Origin: Polyangiaceae bacterium
Lineage (GTDB): Bacteria; Myxococcota_A; Polyangia; Polyangiales; Polyangiaceae
DNA: 45,134 nt
Direction: 5' to 3'
NCBI GenBank assembly: GCA_020848455.1
Contig: JADLAB010000095.1
Span: 1 to 45,134 of the forward strand
The notes beneath the pieces are model-generated. The model did not search any database. It saw only the letters and a list, made by a program, of their open reading frames with translations, and was not told the DNA's origin. Position numbers and translations under genes: made by a program. This document shows, piece after piece, positions 33,403 to 44,210 of the stretch. Position 1 is the first letter of the stretch. Each line of letters starts with the position of its first letter.

Positions 33403-34595
33403 GCGCGTCGTCGCACGTCGCCCATCCGTCCCACGAGGGACACGGCTCGGCGGGGGCGGCGGCCACCCGAGCGCCGCGTGCGCGCCGCACCTGGCAGCTC
33501 GCGCCCGAGCGCGAGTGGCTGCTCGCGCTCGTCGCGCTCGCGCTCTGCGCGGTGCCGCTCGTGCTCGACGCCCGGCAGGGGTCGGCCGGCCTGCTCACGG
33601 CGGGGTTCTGGGGCCTGCTCGTGTGCATGGGCGCGATGTTCTTCGCCGCGGTGAACTGCGTCGGCGGCGCGCGCTGGTGGCGCCCGGTGGAGGGCTCGAC
33701 CATCGCCGTCGGGCGCGGGCTCATCGTGCCGGTGTTCGGCGTCGCGGTGGTCATCGCCGTCGCGATCGCGACCGCCAAGCCCGGCGCGGACGCCCCGCGC
33801 GTGCTCTACCCCTGGCTCACGGACCCCGGCGAGCCGCTCGTCATGGCGAAGGCCGCGTGGCTCAACCCGCTCGCCTTCGTGGCGCGGGCCGCCGGCGTCG
33901 TGGCCGTTCTGCTCGTGTGCTCCACGATGCTCGAGCGCACGCTGAAGCAGCGCGACGTCCACAAGCGCGCCCGCGTCGGTGTGCTCTTCATCCTGCTCGC
34001 CGGCTTCGCGACCATGATCGCGATCTGGGACTGGGTCATGTCGCTCGAGCCCAAGTGGGCGACGACGATGTACTCCTGGTACAACCTCGGCGCCGCGCTG
34101 CAGGGTGGGGTGGCGGCGACGATCGTCTTCACGCTCCTCACCTCCGACCCCGACGAGTCGACGCGGCACGATCTCGGCAAGTACCTGTTCGCCTTCTCGA
34201 TGTTCTGGGCGTACCTGTGGTTCTGCCAGTTCATGCTGATCTGGTACGCGAACATCCCCGAGGAGGCGGCCTACTACCGCTACCGCATGTTCGGGCCGTG
34301 GGCGGGCCTGTTCTGGGCCAACCCGATCGTGACCTTCGCGGCACCGTGGCTCGCCCTCTTGCCGGTGCGCACCAAGCTGCACCGCGGGGCGCTCTTCACC
34401 GCCGCCATCGTCGTGCTGGCGGGCCGCTGGCTCGACGCCTACCTGCTCGTCGGCCCGTCGCAGAGCGACCCGCCCGAGGGCGGCCCGGAGCTCTTCTACG
34501 TGCTCCCGGCGGCCGTCGGCATGGCGATCGCCCTCGTGCTGTGGATCCGGCGCACGAGCCAGACGCCCGCCGAGGCCGCGGGCGACGGCGCGTGA
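33399..34595 (+). CDS. actF: ACIII second NrfD-like membrane subunit ActF
   Basis: The 398-aa protein has about ten membrane helices, such as LLALVALALCAVPLVL and FAFSMFWAYLWFCQFMLIWY. The conserved IPEEAAYYRYR and FGPWAGLFWANPIVTF regions of the ActF family are present. The first 40 residues are His/Ser/Ala-rich and cytoplasmic. ActF is the second NrfD-like unit of the complex. AAGGAGG (33388-33394) lies 4 bp before the ATG, which overlaps the actE stop. It is the last gene of the cluster; no actG, caa3 oxidase or narK follows before the next gene at 34801. Confidence 0.88.
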   Translation: MSASSHVAHPSHEGHGSAGAAATRAPRARRTWQLAPEREWLLALVALALCAVPLVLDARQGSAGLLTAGFWGLLVCMGAMFFAAVNCVGGARWWRPVEGSTIAVGRGLIVPVFGVAVVIAVAIATAKPGADAPRVLYPWLTDPGEPLVMAKAAWLNPLAFVARAAGVVAVLLVCSTMLERTLKQRDVHKRARVGVLFILLAGFATMIAIWDWVMSLEPKWATTMYSWYNLGAALQGGVAATIVFTLLTSDPDESTRHDLGKYLFAFSMFWAYLWFCQFMLIWYANIPEEAAYYRYRMFGPWAGLFWANPIVTFAAPWLALLPVRTKLHRGALFTAAIVVLAGRWLDAYLLVGPSQSDPPEGGPELFYVLPAAVGMAIALVLWIRRTSQTPAEAAGDGA

Positions 34596-34697
34596 CGGGC
34601 GCCCGCCCACGCTCGCTCCGGGCGCCCCGCGCCGGCGCGCGGCCTCGTGGGTGCGCGGCACCCGCTGCGGATTCGCGGACGGCCGATCTCCGTGCAG

Positions 34698-34727
34698 TTG
34701 CGAAAAGTCGTGGCGAGTTGCTACGAT
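34698..34727 (+). promoter_or_regulatory. Candidate sigma-70 promoter for the Hsp70-like gene
   Basis: TTGCGA (34698-34703) and TACGAT (34722-34727) are separated by 18 bp, about 70 bp before the ATG at 34801. Its base composition is lower in GC than its surroundings. It gives the gene a transcription start independent of the ACIII cluster. Inference from motif and position only. Confidence 0.35.
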
Positions 34728-34800
34728 GCGACCCGGTTGCGGCCCGGTACGGCGGGTCGCGTTCAAACGCTAGCCCCACGCCGCGCACGACCGCTTACCG

Positions 34801-37347
34801 ATGTCTCTCTACGGGCTGTCGATAGATCCTGCCTTGGTCCAAGAGGCCGAGACACTCGTGTCGCTGGAGGGGCGTGCCTTCCCGACGCTGGTCGTCTTCT
34901 GGGAGTCCCAGCTCCTCGGCCAGACTTGGGAGACCATCCTGGTGACGGACTACAGCGTCCCGTTGCCTCCGCTGCCCCACGGCAAGCGCTTCAACGAGGT
35001 ACGGGTCGCGGCCTACACCGGCGAGGTGCCGACCAAGTTCCTGTACTTCGGGACCGAGCTCACCTCGGCCGCGCCGCGCGTCGCCCCGCAGATGGAGAAC
35101 CTGGTCGGGCACCAGCGCACCTTCCAGGAGTACCTGATCGAGGAGAATACCTGCCCGATCGGCTACCTCGACCTCATCACGTCGACGCCGCGCATCTACG
35201 GCAACGGGCCGCAGGACTACTACAGCCCGCCCATCCGCGTGGAGCGCTTCGACGCCGAGCCCGGCGCCGACATGATGGCCGACCACTTCCCCGAGATCGT
35301 GGCGGGCCTGCCCAAGATACCGGGCGAGCAGCTCATCGACCCGAGCTACGGCCACTGGCAGGGGGCGCGCTTCGTCGGCACCAAGGCGATCGCGATCCTG
35401 CGCCAAGGCAAGGTCGCGGGCCTCTACCGCCGCACCGGTCGCGCCGAGAAGGAGGTCGTGCCGCCCGAGGTGGTGCGCCGCGACCCGCACGGTGACGTGC
35501 GCGACGGCTGGGTCGCGCTCGACATCGGAGCGACGGGCACCGTCATCGCCATCGGCTCGGCCGACCGGCACGAGTTCGTCCGGCTCGGTGCCGTCTCGGC
35601 CCCGCAGCTCGCGCGCGACTACGAGAATCCGAGCGAGGTGTACTTCGGCAACCTGCAGCGCGTGCTCAAGGCCTGGCGCGACCGGGTGATCCTGCCGCTG
35701 ACGCCGTGGGGCGACGTGCTCGTGGGGCACGCGGCCCGGTCGCGGCTCCAGGTGCAAGGCAAGGAGCGCGCGCTGCGCGCCAAGGCCATGGTCGCCGAGC
35801 TCGGTGTGCTGCCCGAGCGGCTCGAGCGCGGCGACGAGGTGCGCATCGCGGGGCGCAGCGACATCGACGTCACCATGCGCCTCGACCGACCCGCGCCGCC
35901 GGTGTTCGACGAGGAGGGCATCGGGCCGGAGGACCCCTTCGATCCCGTCGAGCTCTACGCCTACTACGTGGGCTTGCACGTCAACGCCCGCGAGCGCGGC
36001 ATCTACCTGCGCTACGCGGTCGGCATGCCCACGGGCTGGCCCCAGGAGCGGCGCCAGCAGGTGATCGCGCAAGTGCGTCGCGGCATCGTGCGCAGCCTGC
36101 CGGCCGGCATGGTCGCGTACGACGACCTCGACTTCCTGCAGGTCGTCGACGCCGGTCCGAACGTGCTGTCGTTCGCCGCCTACGCCTTCCGCGTGTTCGG
36201 CGTCGTGCCGAAGGGCGATCCCGTCCCCTACGTGGCGATCGACGCGGGTGCGACCGAGACGAGCGTGATGTGCGGGCGCTACCGCGAGGGCACGGCCGAC
36301 GAGATCGCGGGCGGGCTCGAGCGCGTGGTGGAGCACGGCGACCCGAGCGTGCTTCCGTACGGCGGCGAGCGCCTGCTGCACCGGGTGGCGTACAAGGTGT
36401 TCGCCGCGAGCCTGACCTCGATGCGGCACAACGACATCGTGTTCGAGCCGCCGCGGGGCGAGGACCTGGTCGAGGGCGCCGAGGATCGCCTCAACACGAG
36501 CCTCGAGGCGCAGATCAACGTGCGGCTGCTGAAGGACGCCGTGCGCTCGATCCTCGAGTCGGCGCGGCCCCAGCCCGTGCCCGATCTCGTGCAGCTCTTC
36601 GCGCGCGACGGCCGCGTGCGCGACGTGCGCATCATGGTGGACCGCGCCGCCCTGTCGGAGTGGCTGCGCGGCCAGCTGTCGGAGCTGGCGGTCGAGATCA
36701 AGGAGGCCATCGCGCGCAACTCCGCCGATCTCGCCAAGGGCACGAAGGGCAACGACCCTTACAGCGGGCTGCGCGTGCTGCTCGGCGGCAGGCTCGGCAT
36801 GAACACGTTCCTGCAGGACCGCCTGCAGGCGGTGCTGCCGCAGGGTGTGCGCCTCCACCGCTTCAAGGAGCCCGACGACACGAACCTCGCCGCGCCCACC
36901 GTGAAGCTCGCCGTCGCGCTCGGCATCCTCACCATGCGCTTCCAGCACATGGGCCCCTCGAAGAAGCGCCATGCCGCCGAGGTGTTCACGTACCAGGTCG
37001 GCCGCGCACGCCAGGGCAAGCTCCTCACGGTGCTCGACCAGAAGACGACCTTCGACGCGTGGCACGAGCTCGGCGCGTGCACCCGGCCGGACGTGACCGT
37101 GCTCTACGCGAGCCAGGCCAAGGACGGCGAGGAGCTCAACGTGGACGATCCGCGCGTGCAGCGCGTCACCTGCATGCTCGGCTACGACGCCGTGGGTTAC
37201 CGCATCTACGTGCGGGCCGTGGGCGGCGGACGCATCGAGCTCGGCGTCGGCCCGCCGGGCGGGCGCCCCGACGAGGAGGGCCCCTTCTGGGCCATCGACC
37301 TCGCGAGCGGCGCGAGCGAGGCGGTGTCGCAGTCACCGCGTGGCTGA
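34801..37347 (+). CDS. Large Hsp70/actin-fold ATPase-like protein, unknown function
   Basis: The 848-aa protein has a ~230-residue N-terminal region (LVVFWESQLLGQTWETILVTDY...) with no family I recognise. Actin/Hsp70-type phosphate loops then appear in order: DIGATGTVIAIG (residue 241), VAIDAGATETSVMC (about 479) and LLGGRLGMNTFLQDRL (about 660). These are the phosphate-1, phosphate-2 and adenosine elements of the sugar-kinase/Hsp70/actin superfamily, though the pieces are spread over 420 residues. A C-terminal domain (FDAWHELGACTRPDVTVLY) follows. Nucleotide binding is likely; folding, assembly or signalling roles are all open. No strong ribosome site precedes the ATG. It seems monocistronic. 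Confidence 0.7.
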   Translation: MSLYGLSIDPALVQEAETLVSLEGRAFPTLVVFWESQLLGQTWETILVTDYSVPLPPLPHGKRFNEVRVAAYTGEVPTKFLYFGTELTSAAPRVAPQMENLVGHQRTFQEYLIEENTCPIGYLDLITSTPRIYGNGPQDYYSPPIRVERFDAEPGADMMADHFPEIVAGLPKIPGEQLIDPSYGHWQGARFVGTKAIAILRQGKVAGLYRRTGRAEKEVVPPEVVRRDPHGDVRDGWVALDIGATGTVIAIGSADRHEFVRLGAVSAPQLARDYENPSEVYFGNLQRVLKAWRDRVILPLTPWGDVLVGHAARSRLQVQGKERALRAKAMVAELGVLPERLERGDEVRIAGRSDIDVTMRLDRPAPPVFDEEGIGPEDPFDPVELYAYYVGLHVNARERGIYLRYAVGMPTGWPQERRQQVIAQVRRGIVRSLPAGMVAYDDLDFLQVVDAGPNVLSFAAYAFRVFGVVPKGDPVPYVAIDAGATETSVMCGRYREGTADEIAGGLERVVEHGDPSVLPYGGERLLHRVAYKVFAASLTSMRHNDIVFEPPRGEDLVEGAEDRLNTSLEAQINVRLLKDAVRSILESARPQPVPDLVQLFARDGRVRDVRIMVDRAALSEWLRGQLSELAVEIKEAIARNSADLAKGTKGNDPYSGLRVLLGGRLGMNTFLQDRLQAVLPQGVRLHRFKEPDDTNLAAPTVKLAVALGILTMRFQHMGPSKKRHAAEVFTYQVGRARQGKLLTVLDQKTTFDAWHELGACTRPDVTVLYASQAKDGEELNVDDPRVQRVTCMLGYDAVGYRIYVRAVGGGRIELGVGPPGGRPDEEGPFWAIDLASGASEAVSQSPRG

Positions 37348-37409
37348 TGCGCTAGGCCCGGCTCGCCGGGAATCCCGCCCGATCGCGGGACATTGCATAC
37401 GGCGTGACC

Positions 37410-39152
37410 ATGGCGCAAGGCACCGAGGAGCGAACGGAGGGATCGGCCCACGACCCACCCGTGCGCGACACCGCGGCGGGAGGGGCTCCGGCGCGCTCGG
37501 AGGACGTGAGCCCGCTCGGGCTCGCCGACGACACGCCGCCCGCCGCAGGGGCGCCCGCCGACGACGCGCTGCCCGGCGGACCAGCACCCGCCGAGCGAGT
37601 GCCCGCCGGGCAAGGGCCCGCCGACGACGTGCCCGCCGACGAGGTGCCCGCCGCGCTCCTCGGGGAGGCGCCGCCCGGGCAGGCGCCCACCGCGCTCGGG
37701 TCGGCGGCCGACGTGGCCGCCGGGGTCGCGGCGCCGGGCGACGCCTCGGTCTGGGCGCGCGAGGACGCGGCCGGTGTGCGCGGCGCGAGCGGCAAGAGCC
37801 CGAAGAAGCCGAAGAAACCGAAGAGCCGCCTGCGGCGCTGGCTCGGCCGCATCGGCAAGGGGTTCGTGGGGCTCGTGGCGACCGGGCTCGTGCTGTGGGG
37901 CCTCACGCACGCCTTCCCGAGCTTCGGCGCGTGGATGGCGGACGCCCTGCGCAGCGTGTTCGGCGCGCGCTTCGTGGCGTGGCTCGAGGACGTCGCCTAC
38001 GACGTGAAGGACTGGTACGAGCGCTGGCGCCACGGCGACGACGCGCCGGCGACCCTGTGGGAGGTCCCGACGGGCGCCCCGGGCGCCACCGACGCGCCGC
38101 CGCCCGCACCCGCGCCGCCCGCCTCGGCCTCCGCTGGGGACGCGCCCGAGCCGCCCTTCGCGCCGCCCGCGGCGGAGCTGCCCTTCGAGAAGGTCGCCTC
38201 GCCGGGCGACGGCGCCTGGATCGCGATGCCCGACGCCGCGCGCCCGACGCTCCCCCCCGCGCTCTTCAAGACGATGATCCACCCCGACCCGCGGCGGCCC
38301 TTCACGGTGCTCGCGGTGGTGGCGGTCGATCTGCGCGCCATCGAGCTGTCGCTCGTGGCCGGCGTGACCGAGCCCGAGTCGATGAGCATCCGCATGGCCG
38401 ATCGCCCCGGCAAGATCCCGAACGACGACTGGGACGCGCTCGTCGCGGCCTTCAACGGCGGCTTCAAGGCCGTCCACGGGCAGTACGGGATGATGATCGA
38501 CGGCAAGACCTTCCTGCCGCCCCAGGAGTTCGCCTGCACCATCGTGCGCTACCTCGACGGCAGCCTGCGCATCGGAAGCTGGTCCGACCTGAAGGCGGAC
38601 CGCGAGCGCATGGCCTATCTTCGACAGGCACCGCCCTGTCTCGTCGAGGGCGGCGACGTGCACAAGGCCCTGCTCTACAACGAGTACGCGAAGGGGTGGG
38701 GCGCGACCGTGAGCGGGGACACCGTCATTCGCCGGTCGGCGCTCGGGCTCGACCCTTCGGGGCAAGTGCTGTTCTACGGCATCGGCGAAGCGCTGACCGC
38801 ACAGTCGCTCGCCCAGGGCATGCGCGCCGTGGGCTCCGACGCGGTCGCGGAGCTCGACGTCAACTACTCGTACCCCCGCTTCCTGACCTACAAGCGCCCC
38901 GCTCCCGGCGACCCGCCGCGCGTCGACAGCCCGCTCATCCCGAACATCGACGCGACCCCGGACCAGTACGTGACCCGGCCCTCGGCCCGCGACTTCTTCT
39001 ACCTCGCGCGCCGGCCCGAGCGGTTGCCACCCCCCGGCGCCGCTCCGCCCCCGAGCGCCGAGCCCGACCCGAGCGCGAGTGCGGCGCCGAGCGCCACCGG
39101 CTCGACGAGCGCGAGCGGGCCGGGATCGCCCGGCGAGACACCGGGCAAGTGA
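37410..39152 (+). CDS. Membrane-anchored protein with NAGPA-like (phosphodiester glycosidase) domain
   Basis: The 580-aa product starts with about 125 residues of Ala/Pro/Asp/Gly-rich disordered sequence with repeated PADD and PAG segments. A Lys-rich stretch (SPKKPKKPKSRLRR) and one membrane helix (FVGLVATGLVLWGL) lead into an extracytoplasmic domain. There, AFNGGFKAVHGQYGM, CLVEGGD, RRSALGLD, LFYGIGEALTAQSLAQGM and ELDVNYSYPRFL resemble the NAGPA/DUF2233 domain, which cleaves GlcNAc-1-phosphodiesters in eukaryotic mannose-6-phosphate tagging and is thought to act on phosphate-linked glycans in bacteria. The likely role is in envelope polysaccharide processing. A GTG at 37404 is an alternative start. 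Confidence 0.7.
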   Translation: MAQGTEERTEGSAHDPPVRDTAAGGAPARSEDVSPLGLADDTPPAAGAPADDALPGGPAPAERVPAGQGPADDVPADEVPAALLGEAPPGQAPTALGSAADVAAGVAAPGDASVWAREDAAGVRGASGKSPKKPKKPKSRLRRWLGRIGKGFVGLVATGLVLWGLTHAFPSFGAWMADALRSVFGARFVAWLEDVAYDVKDWYERWRHGDDAPATLWEVPTGAPGATDAPPPAPAPPASASAGDAPEPPFAPPAAELPFEKVASPGDGAWIAMPDAARPTLPPALFKTMIHPDPRRPFTVLAVVAVDLRAIELSLVAGVTEPESMSIRMADRPGKIPNDDWDALVAAFNGGFKAVHGQYGMMIDGKTFLPPQEFACTIVRYLDGSLRIGSWSDLKADRERMAYLRQAPPCLVEGGDVHKALLYNEYAKGWGATVSGDTVIRRSALGLDPSGQVLFYGIGEALTAQSLAQGMRAVGSDAVAELDVNYSYPRFLTYKRPAPGDPPRVDSPLIPNIDATPDQYVTRPSARDFFYLARRPERLPPPGAAPPPSAEPDPSASAAPSATGSTSASGPGSPGETPGK

Positions 39153-39243: not shown

Positions 39244-39329
39244 CTCTGCTCGCCCGCTGCAGGGCGGATATTCGACAATGTAGGTGCCAGTAGTCTACTG
39301 TGCGTCCTGACCCTCGCGGAGGCGACGTG

Positions 39330-40007
39330 ATGATCGACGCAGGACTCTCGAGCAGAGTGGGCAGTGGCAAGTCCGTGGTGAAGCGCGAGCACGGCGACAA
39401 GCGCCGGGCACCTCGGCGCAACGTGGAGCTCGCGTGCGAGCTCGTCACCGACGACGTCGACGAGCCGCTGCTGCGCTGGGCGACGGATCTGTCGCCCTTC
39501 GGGCTGTGGCTCGAGGCCGCCGAGCCGCTCGGGCCCGGCGAGACGGTGGTCGTGTGCCTCGAGCCGCCGGTGTGCTGGCCCCGCGGCCGTGAGCTCGTCG
39601 TCTTCGCGGGCGTCACGCGGGCCGGGTGGGGGCGCCGCGTGGCCGATCGCGGGGCGAGCGGCATGGGCCTCGACTTCATCGATCTGTCGCCGCACGAGGA
39701 GCGGGTGCTGCGGAGCTGGCTCGGGTGGCGGCCCACGCAGCCGCGCCGGCGCTTCGGAATGCCGCGTCGTGCGCGGGCAGGGGAGCTCGGCATGCCCCCG
39801 GCCGCGAGCCAGCCGGCGGTCGCGTGGCCGAGCGACGTGCGGTCCGTGCGCGAGTGCGCGCACCTGCCCGTGCCACGCCCGACGCTGCGCGTGCGGCCGA
39901 GCGCGCCCGCCCACGCGAGCGGCATCGAGCTCGGTCTCGAGCCCGGCGAGGACGTGCTCGGCGGCCTCGGCGACGACTACGACGGCGAGGCGTGGGGCCT
40001 CGGCTGA
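39330..40007 (+). CDS. PilZ-domain protein
   Basis: The 225-aa protein carries a PilZ-like domain in residues ~20-130. RRAPRR gives the RxxxR box, and TDLSPFGLWLEA gives a D-x-S-x-x-G-type second motif; both are needed for cyclic di-GMP binding, so binding is plausible. About 95 further residues are Pro/Arg/Ala-rich without a known fold. PilZ proteins couple c-di-GMP to motility or exopolysaccharide output. GGAGG (39318-39322) lies 7 bp before the ATG. The gene converges on a minus-strand operon, 13 bp away. Confidence 0.75.
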   Translation: MIDAGLSSRVGSGKSVVKREHGDKRRAPRRNVELACELVTDDVDEPLLRWATDLSPFGLWLEAAEPLGPGETVVVCLEPPVCWPRGRELVVFAGVTRAGWGRRVADRGASGMGLDFIDLSPHEERVLRSWLGWRPTQPRRRFGMPRRARAGELGMPPAASQPAVAWPSDVRSVRECAHLPVPRPTLRVRPSAPAHASGIELGLEPGEDVLGGLGDDYDGEAWGLG

Positions 40008-43154: not shown

Positions 43155-44210
43155 GTGCGGGCGCTCGGCGCCTGGTACGACACCTCGGCGCGCCCGCTGC
43201 CGTGGCGCGCCACGCGCGACCCCTACGCCGTGTGGGTGAGCGAGGTGATGCTGCAGCAGACGCGCGTCGAGACGGTCGTGCCGTACTACGGGCGCTTCCT
43301 GGCGCGCTTCCCGACGGCGGCGGCGCTCGGCGCGGCGCCGCTCGAGGACGTGCTCGCGGCCTGGAGCGGCCTCGGATACTACCGGCGCGCGCGCTCGCTC
43401 TGGCTCGCTGCCCGCGAGGTGTGCGAGCGCTGGGGTGGGCGCCTGCCAGGGAGCGCCGCCGAGCTCGCCACGCTGTCGGGCGTGGGCGCGTACACCGCCG
43501 GGGCCGTCGCGAGCATCGCCTTCGACGCCAAGGAGCCGCTCGTCGACGGCAACGTGGCGCGCGTGTTGGCGCGCCTCGCGGCGATCGACGTGCCCGTCGC
43601 GGCGGGCGCGGGGCGGCGGGCCCTGTGGGACCTCGCCCGAGCGCTCGTGCCCGCGCGGGCGCCGGGGCGGTTCAACCAGGCGCTGATGGAGCTCGGCGCC
43701 ACGATCTGCACGCCCGCTCGACCCGCGTGCGGGCGCTGCCCGGTCGCCTCGCTCTGTGCGGCCCGCGCGCGCGGGAGCCCCGAGGCGCTGCCGGTCACGA
43801 CGAGCCGGCGGCCCCCCGAGCCCGTGGCCCTCGTCGCCGCGGTGGCCTTCGCCGGGGCCGAGGTGTGGCTCGGCAGGCGCACCCTCGGCGGCCTCTACGC
43901 CGGGATGTGGGAGCCGCCCATGGTGCCGGCCGGGTCGCTGCGCGGCGCGCGGTCGGCGCTCCGGGGCTGTGGGCTGCCGGCGACGCTCCGCTTTCGCGCC
44001 TGCGGCGAGCTCGAGCACGCGCTCACGCACCGCCGGCTGACCTTGCGGGTGGTCCTCACCCGTACGCGCCGCGCCGGTGCGGCGGTGGTGAGCCCGAGCA
44101 CGCCGTACGCAGCCTTCGCCTGGCAGCCGCGCGCCGAGCTGCCGCGGGCCATGTCGACCCTCGCGCGCCGGGTGCTCGCGCTCGCGGAGAGGGCGGAGGG
44201 CGCGGCGTGA
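43155..44210 (+). CDS. mutY: A/G-specific adenine DNA glycosylase MutY
   Basis: The 351-aa protein has the MutY features: catalytic Glu30 in SEVMLQQTRVETV, the helix-hairpin-helix LSGVGAYTAGAVASIAF, catalytic Asp131 in VDGNVARVLARL, and a [4Fe-4S] cluster formed by Cys185, Cys192, Cys195 and Cys201 (C-x6-C-x2-C-x5-C). The C-terminal Nudix-like domain (WLGRRTLGGLYAGMWEPP) that recognises 8-oxoG is present, with a FRACGELEHALTHRRL motif of the family. It removes A opposite 8-oxoG. The GTG at 43155 is the only reasonable start between the pepP stop and the motif block, giving a slightly short N-terminus. The stop overlaps the next start. Confidence 0.88.
   Translation: MRALGAWYDTSARPLPWRATRDPYAVWVSEVMLQQTRVETVVPYYGRFLARFPTAAALGAAPLEDVLAAWSGLGYYRRARSLWLAAREVCERWGGRLPGSAAELATLSGVGAYTAGAVASIAFDAKEPLVDGNVARVLARLAAIDVPVAAGAGRRALWDLARALVPARAPGRFNQALMELGATICTPARPACGRCPVASLCAARARGSPEALPVTTSRRPPEPVALVAAVAFAGAEVWLGRRTLGGLYAGMWEPPMVPAGSLRGARSALRGCGLPATLRFRACGELEHALTHRRLTLRVVLTRTRRAGAAVVSPSTPYAAFAWQPRAELPRAMSTLARRVLALAERAEGAA

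Follow-up and report, generated by a model that had tools for sequence, protein, structure and literature searches.

The stretch of DNA analysed here (the window, 45,134 nucleotides from a Polyangiaceae bacterium) encodes, directly after its act respiratory cluster, an 848-aa protein that was originally predicted to be of the Hsp70/actin type, to fit no named chaperone and conceivably to assist in the assembly of a respiratory complex. This raises the question of what kind of protein it is, and whether it belongs with the respiratory genes beside it. The ORF (34801-37347, forward strand) runs from an ATG start to a stop codon without internal stops. It is a real gene and not a chance ORF, since full-length relatives occur in other genera (49-64% identity, 840-845 aa, with the same start methionine), carriers comprise 29 of 108 host-family genomes and dN/dS values lie between 0.07 and 0.45 in all twelve ortholog pairs compared (12/12). 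Judged from these ratios, the ortholog clade is under purifying selection. Copies are full length and free of stops in 25 genomes and are cut or split by contigs in the other four. Outside the host family no close ortholog was identified in a phylum sample of 282 genomes, only one relative of 31% (genome G241). The predicted gene is thereby confirmed. The candidate promoter attributed to it was not recovered, as a scan of 34300-37700 for sigma-70-type promoters returned no sites (shuffled sequences averaging 0.1), this being a consensus that myxobacterial promoters need not fit.

Direct searches assigned the protein to no family, as had been claimed. It gave no Pfam hits even at E≤10, only a chance match in NCBIfam and nothing usable among PDB sequences; the Hsp70 family PF00012 was absent from 8/8 orthologs at E≤10 in Pfam, and a PDB profile search using the orthologs alone gave a single chance hit. 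Relatives were reached by tblastn among plasmid records, which matched a 976-aa protein from a plasmid of Acinetobacter piscicola (E 2e-44, 26% along 72% of the window protein) and a Helicobacter plasmid protein (E 2e-14). The profile of these plasmid-type proteins in turn retrieves the gene from the genome of the window (E 2e-62). Using hhalign, the orthologs scored 100% against the plasmid type (E 1e-66, columns 168-825) and 99.4% against paralogs of approximately 970 aa in Myxococcota, and these two groups scored 97.8% and 96.9%, respectively, against the Hsp70 proteins of E. coli. In comparison with 177,635 PDB sequences, the paralog profile gave 50 hits, all of them to Hsp70 (50/50; best E 0.03), and the plasmid-type profile gave 14 hits, 11 of them to Hsp70 (best E 0.003).

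These relatives carry canonical motif types (DFGTSST and DFGGGTTDF, with LAGNSSRS in the plasmid-type proteins), and their EP, GGGT, GGE and GG motifs are in register with those of Hsp70. The three motifs of the window protein occur where they had been placed (DIGATGT at residues 241-247, DAGATET at 481-487, LLGGRLG at 660-666), and its phosphate-1, phosphate-2 and adenosine motifs follow in order, with residues 241, 481 and 663 in register with DnaK residues 8, 194 and 341. Because the PDB hits are specific to Hsp70 and the motifs are in register, the profile comparisons make the Hsp70/actin assignment firm despite modest E-values, but only through intermediate relatives. The predicted type therefore holds by way of these intermediates (97-98% to Hsp70), whereas the direct comparison of the ortholog profile with Hsp70 was insignificant (2.1%). 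Comparisons with single E. coli sequences of MreB (10.7%) and FtsA (0.2%), a weak test, indicated no membership. In a tree that leaves out the partial rows L057, L061 and L062, the orthologs come out as a single clade (24 rows, support 100/100), which groups with the plasmid-type proteins rather than with the paralogs at weak support (89/68) and with long branches flagged.

Features of the gene, its product and its conserved neighbours in the window (locus counts refer to 15 ortholog loci)
Feature	Position	Strand	Basis or conservation
848-aa Hsp70-type actin-fold protein P0001	34801..37347	+	ORF, ortholog survey
N-terminal region, residues 1-235	34801..35505	+	profile comparison
Hsp70/actin-type core, residues about 236-715	35506..36945	+	profile comparison, alignment
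Phosphate-1 motif DIGATGT, residues 241-247	35521..35541	+	Asp aligned to DnaK D8, kept in 27/27
Gly335 at the place of DnaK K70	35803..35805	+	Lys in 0/27 orthologs
Asn454 at the place of DnaK E171	36160..36162	+	Asn/Ala/Ser in 26/26 orthologs
Phosphate-2 motif DAGATET, residues 481-487	36241..36261	+	Glu486 at the place of DnaK T199, 26/26
GGE, residues 521-523	36361..36369	+	aligned with DnaK GGE 228-230
GGR, residues 662-664, adenosine-motif position	36784..36792	+	Arg664 in 26/26 orthologs; Asn/Gly in relatives and Hsp70
C-terminal domain, residues about 716-848	36946..37344	+	common to the wider family
NAGPA-like protein, probable N-terminal membrane helix	37404..39152	+	PF09992 just below cut-off; 14/15 loci
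Zn-ribbon-like protein, ~160 aa	40021..40503	-	11/15 loci
Charged protein, ~170-220 aa	40511..41185	-	11/15 loci
MutY-type protein	43155..44210	+	10/15 loci

The long N-terminus had been described as being without known relatives. This holds for residues 1 to about 170, which resemble no sequence tested; residues from about 168 to 235 are shared with the plasmid-type relatives and, like the core and the C-terminal domain, are common to distant relatives in profile comparison. The ortholog N-terminal region scored 9.7% against the N-terminus of the paralogs and weakly (42.9%, residues 105-236) against that of the plasmid type, and the C-terminal ~130 residues of the orthologs match the C-termini of the plasmid-type proteins (97.3%) and of the paralogs (89.4%). 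No membrane helix is evident in the 848-aa protein itself, and no substrate-binding domain was detected after the core, where Pfam found no domain in the window protein or its orthologs. Single-sequence AlphaFold2 prediction of the window protein gave a mean pLDDT of 34, too low for a usable model, and the fold is accordingly assigned from sequence homology.

Residues of the ATP site were counted in a single alignment that comprised 27 orthologs, 14 paralogs, four plasmid-type proteins and four E. coli Hsp70s, the columns falling on DnaK D8, K70, E171, D194, G196-T199, GGE228-230 and G341. These counts leave out L004 (genome G001), a near copy of the window, and keep L057, L061 and L062 where a letter is present, a gap in L062 reducing 27 to 26. 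Residues K70, E171 and T199 of DnaK are needed for its ATPase activity, according to mutant studies. In the orthologs Lys is found at the first of these positions in 0/27 (a column that is alignment-dependent, some orthologs having, within a few residues, a Lys that is not conserved), Glu at the second in 0/26 and Thr at the third in 0/26, where all 26 possess Glu instead. The three residues are all kept in 14/14 paralogs and 4/4 plasmid-type relatives; E. coli DnaK, HscA and HscC are likewise intact at these positions, and YegD has R for K. Replacement of the catalytic residues throughout the aligned orthologs, with the site intact in their relatives, is on this alignment a new observation, from which the window clade is predicted to be a selected, ATP-hydrolysis-deficient actin-fold protein.

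Loss of these residues could also mean a decaying gene whose motifs have merely disappeared. This reading is extremely improbable and was dropped on account of the dN/dS values, and the intact full-length copies and a new invariant motif likewise argue against it. Since the new residues E486 and R664 are each invariant across the orthologs (26/26), we read the site as remodelled and not decayed. The same invariance would be expected of a working site and, together with purifying selection, the conservation of D8 (27/27) and G196 (26/26) and the presence of GGE in most orthologs (25, 23 and 25 of 26 at its three positions), it gives some support to a protein that is still an active or nucleotide-cycling ATPase, in which Glu486 and Arg664 would have taken over the roles of the lost residues. 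We regard this as unlikely, given that three residues required in DnaK are lost together and that Ala or Ser has taken the place of the phosphate-1 Thr in 23/27 orthologs. In the window clade, nucleotide may nevertheless be bound and not hydrolysed, or be hydrolysed by means of other residues, because D8 is retained throughout and the D194 equivalent is an acidic residue (D or E) in 26/26.

The surroundings of the gene were compared by tblastn at 15 ortholog loci (the window, L029-L035, L037 and L097-L102), with L036 left out of the counts as its contig ends inside the gene. The most constant neighbour encodes the NAGPA-like protein, found within about 8 kb of the ortholog in either orientation and absent at L101 alone. 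NAGPA homologues, weaker ones included, are nearly universal in the host family (107/108 genomes), and scores of at least 465 bits, a line drawn after the scores had been viewed, occur in 29/29 carriers (in one as pieces of 420 and 242 bits) versus 10/79 non-carriers. The two genes are often convergent and not co-transcribed, and at L033, L097, L098 and L102 they lie 2 to 8 kb apart, so their shared location may reflect inherited order rather than function. In the window, the NAGPA-like protein possesses a long Pro/Ala-rich N-terminal stretch that is shorter or absent in its orthologs. A sub-threshold PilZ match (E 0.003) lies at 39300-40007, between the genes of the NAGPA-like and Zn-ribbon-like proteins, and an M24 Pfam match is also present in the window. 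The gene at 43155..44210 is presumably of the MutY type, judging by the appearance of its sequence. A divergent Ser/Thr kinase gene is found at most about 0.3 kb from the ortholog at seven of the 15 loci (L030, L031, L033, L034, L097, L098 and L102). The window is not among these, as the kinase match closest to the gene is some 20 kb away. PADLOC models gave no hits at E≤1 for the window protein, paralog L002, the L038 member or the NAGPA-like neighbour.

Relatives with an intact site are found in different company. The surroundings of the paralogs repeatedly include a dynamin-family protein of ~850 aa (PF00350) and a coiled-coil-like protein of ~650-680 aa, and examples of the complete trio were observed in Myxococcota at L072, L074, L076, L077 and L078. 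Thirteen of 15 genomes with a paralog or plasmid-type member were checked for dynamin (G001 and G201 being left out). Each had 4 to 12 Dynamin_N matches, and in 10 of the 13, among them G241 with its distant member, an intact relative is encoded on the same contig as a dynamin-family GTPase gene and within about 10 kb of it; in the other three the dynamin is on a different contig of a fragmented assembly. The Acinetobacter piscicola plasmid pYH12207-1 (L070:1223-15546) has an operon-like run beginning with a WYL regulator, a HerA/FtsK-like ATPase and small proteins. It continues with two coiled-coil-like proteins, two tandem family members (940 and 976 aa, with weak Lcl_C matches) and a HEPN protein, and dynamin is last; this operon looks like a conflict system. 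At a Helicobacter plasmid locus (L071:6215-8739), for which the annotation gives no dynamin, the family member is apparently interrupted, with one in-frame stop within the region matched by the profile and its C-terminal part found as a piece of its own. Relatives were detected neither in phage records nor in viral contigs at the sensitivity used, and no paper on the family was found in a literature search of partial coverage.

Two further explanations concern possible partners of the window protein. One, suggested by its position, is a chaperone that helps alternative complex III or nitrate reductase to assemble, with ActD lying on the same contig as the ortholog also in G001, a genome of the same genus. 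For this purpose nar was assessed by neighbourhood only and act (as ActD) also genome-wide. Homologues of ActB, ActD, NarG and NarH are near the gene at just one of the 15 ortholog loci, the window itself, and ActD occurs in 23/29 carriers versus 69/79 non-carriers, with no positive association; it was not detected in six carriers (G006, G164, G369, G366, G367 and G025). The original prediction had named, as evidence that would tell against the link, orthologs in genomes lacking nar and act and having no conserved neighbours. Carriers without detected ActD do exist, but the NAGPA-domain, Zn-ribbon-like, charged and MutY-type neighbours are conserved. The respiratory role is very improbable and was dropped after the neighbourhood and co-occurrence tests, which largely refute it; no tie between the protein and the respiratory cluster is visible. 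The other explanation makes it an accessory part acting in trans in a dynamin-coupled membrane or conflict system, where it might partner the intact ~970-aa paralog or the dynamin of that paralog, as TsaB (YeaZ) does TsaD. The paralog is also present in at least 13/29 carriers (a lower bound, from an ortholog-profile search), and both the dynamin genes near its relatives and the Acinetobacter operon would suit such a role. Against it stand the 16/29 carriers in which that search returned no paralog and the result of six dynamin queries, which found no match near the gene at any of the 15 ortholog loci. We consider this role rather improbable.

On balance, and with little more than even confidence, the explanation that best accommodates the observed homology, residue changes, selection and conserved neighbourhood is an Hsp70-type protein whose catalytic residues have been replaced under selection, serving as a non-hydrolysing scaffold or switch apart from the respiratory cluster. 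Such a protein would be soluble, with an N-terminal domain followed by an Hsp70-type actin-fold core and a family-specific C-terminal domain, and would descend from Hsp70-type ATPases with an intact catalytic site, the majority encoded near dynamin-family GTPases. Three residues, namely the catalytic Lys, bridging Glu and phosphate-2 Thr, have been exchanged in the Myxococcota clade, where a nearly invariant new signature ([D/E]-A-G-A-[S/T]-E ... G-R) is now maintained by purifying selection. ATP would then not be hydrolysed by the Hsp70 mechanism, and the protein may act as a binding scaffold or as a nucleotide-sensing (ligand-locked) switch, by analogy with what has been proposed for YeaZ and CnuD. 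Gene order hints more faintly at action at the inner membrane, in envelope upkeep, together with the probably membrane-anchored NAGPA-like neighbour. The protein is probably a retired motor turned scaffold, as the residues that burn ATP are replaced, the motifs that give it shape are kept and its close cousins lie beside dynamin genes. A wider proposal, which we put forward only tentatively, is that it is the hydrolysis-dead branch of a bacterial family whose members, Hsp70-type actin-fold ATPases, act on membranes as a single machine with a dynamin GTPase (in Myxococcota and on the Acinetobacter plasmid), and that in the host family the motor gave up both its ATP chemistry and its dynamin, to serve anew as a scaffold beside an envelope glycosidase-like protein.

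This conserved, uncharacterised protein, for which the earlier guess at the fold was right and that at a respiratory link was not, would offer a testable conversion of enzyme to scaffold within an Hsp70-type family unrecognised by the profile libraries searched, in which the intact sisters could serve as natural controls. That these sisters are found repeatedly with a dynamin-family GTPase, both across Myxococcota and on a plasmid of a gammaproteobacterium, suggests a membrane system worthy of biochemistry, and the window protein would gain in interest were its relatives shown to be coupled to dynamin.

Several known systems invite comparison. SrfB of the SrfABC operon (PF07520) is similar in size to the ~970-aa paralog, which with its dynamin and coiled-coil neighbours we take to resemble the three-gene SrfABC layout. 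PF07520 had no match in 8/8 orthologs and 8/8 paralogs at E≤10, and the assignment of the paralog to SrfB was dropped for this reason. In the portion of the SrfABC paper available, no domain assignment is given (PMC6950479). Kaur et al. describe conflict systems that pair GTPases with HSP70 proteins, the word 'dynamin' occurring 0 times in the accessible text (PMC7159879). YeaZ/TsaB is a member of the actin-like ATPase superfamily that, according to the excerpt consulted, has lost ATP binding and plays a role in protein complexes; it differs from the window protein in being minimal (about 200 aa), of another family and with its partner known (PMC2954210). CnuD is the Hsp70-like component of CoCoNuT systems, for which the authors, in the sections at hand, expect nucleotide to be bound but very little of it hydrolysed (PMC11090510). 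Compared by description, the plasmid relatives occupy settings similar to those of CnuD, which include HEPN, coiled-coil and FtsK-like genes; unlike with CnuD as described in those sections, no McrB/McrC genes were noticed beside the window clade or the plasmid relatives. A further likeness is to the nucleotide-binding domain of Hsp70 itself (DnaK, HscA, HscC and YegD; PF00012), with which the intact relatives share the order and spacing of phosphate-1, the K70 region, EP, phosphate-2, GGE and GG, and from which the window clade differs by an extra N-terminal domain, a C-terminal domain of its own and the replacement of three catalytic residues.
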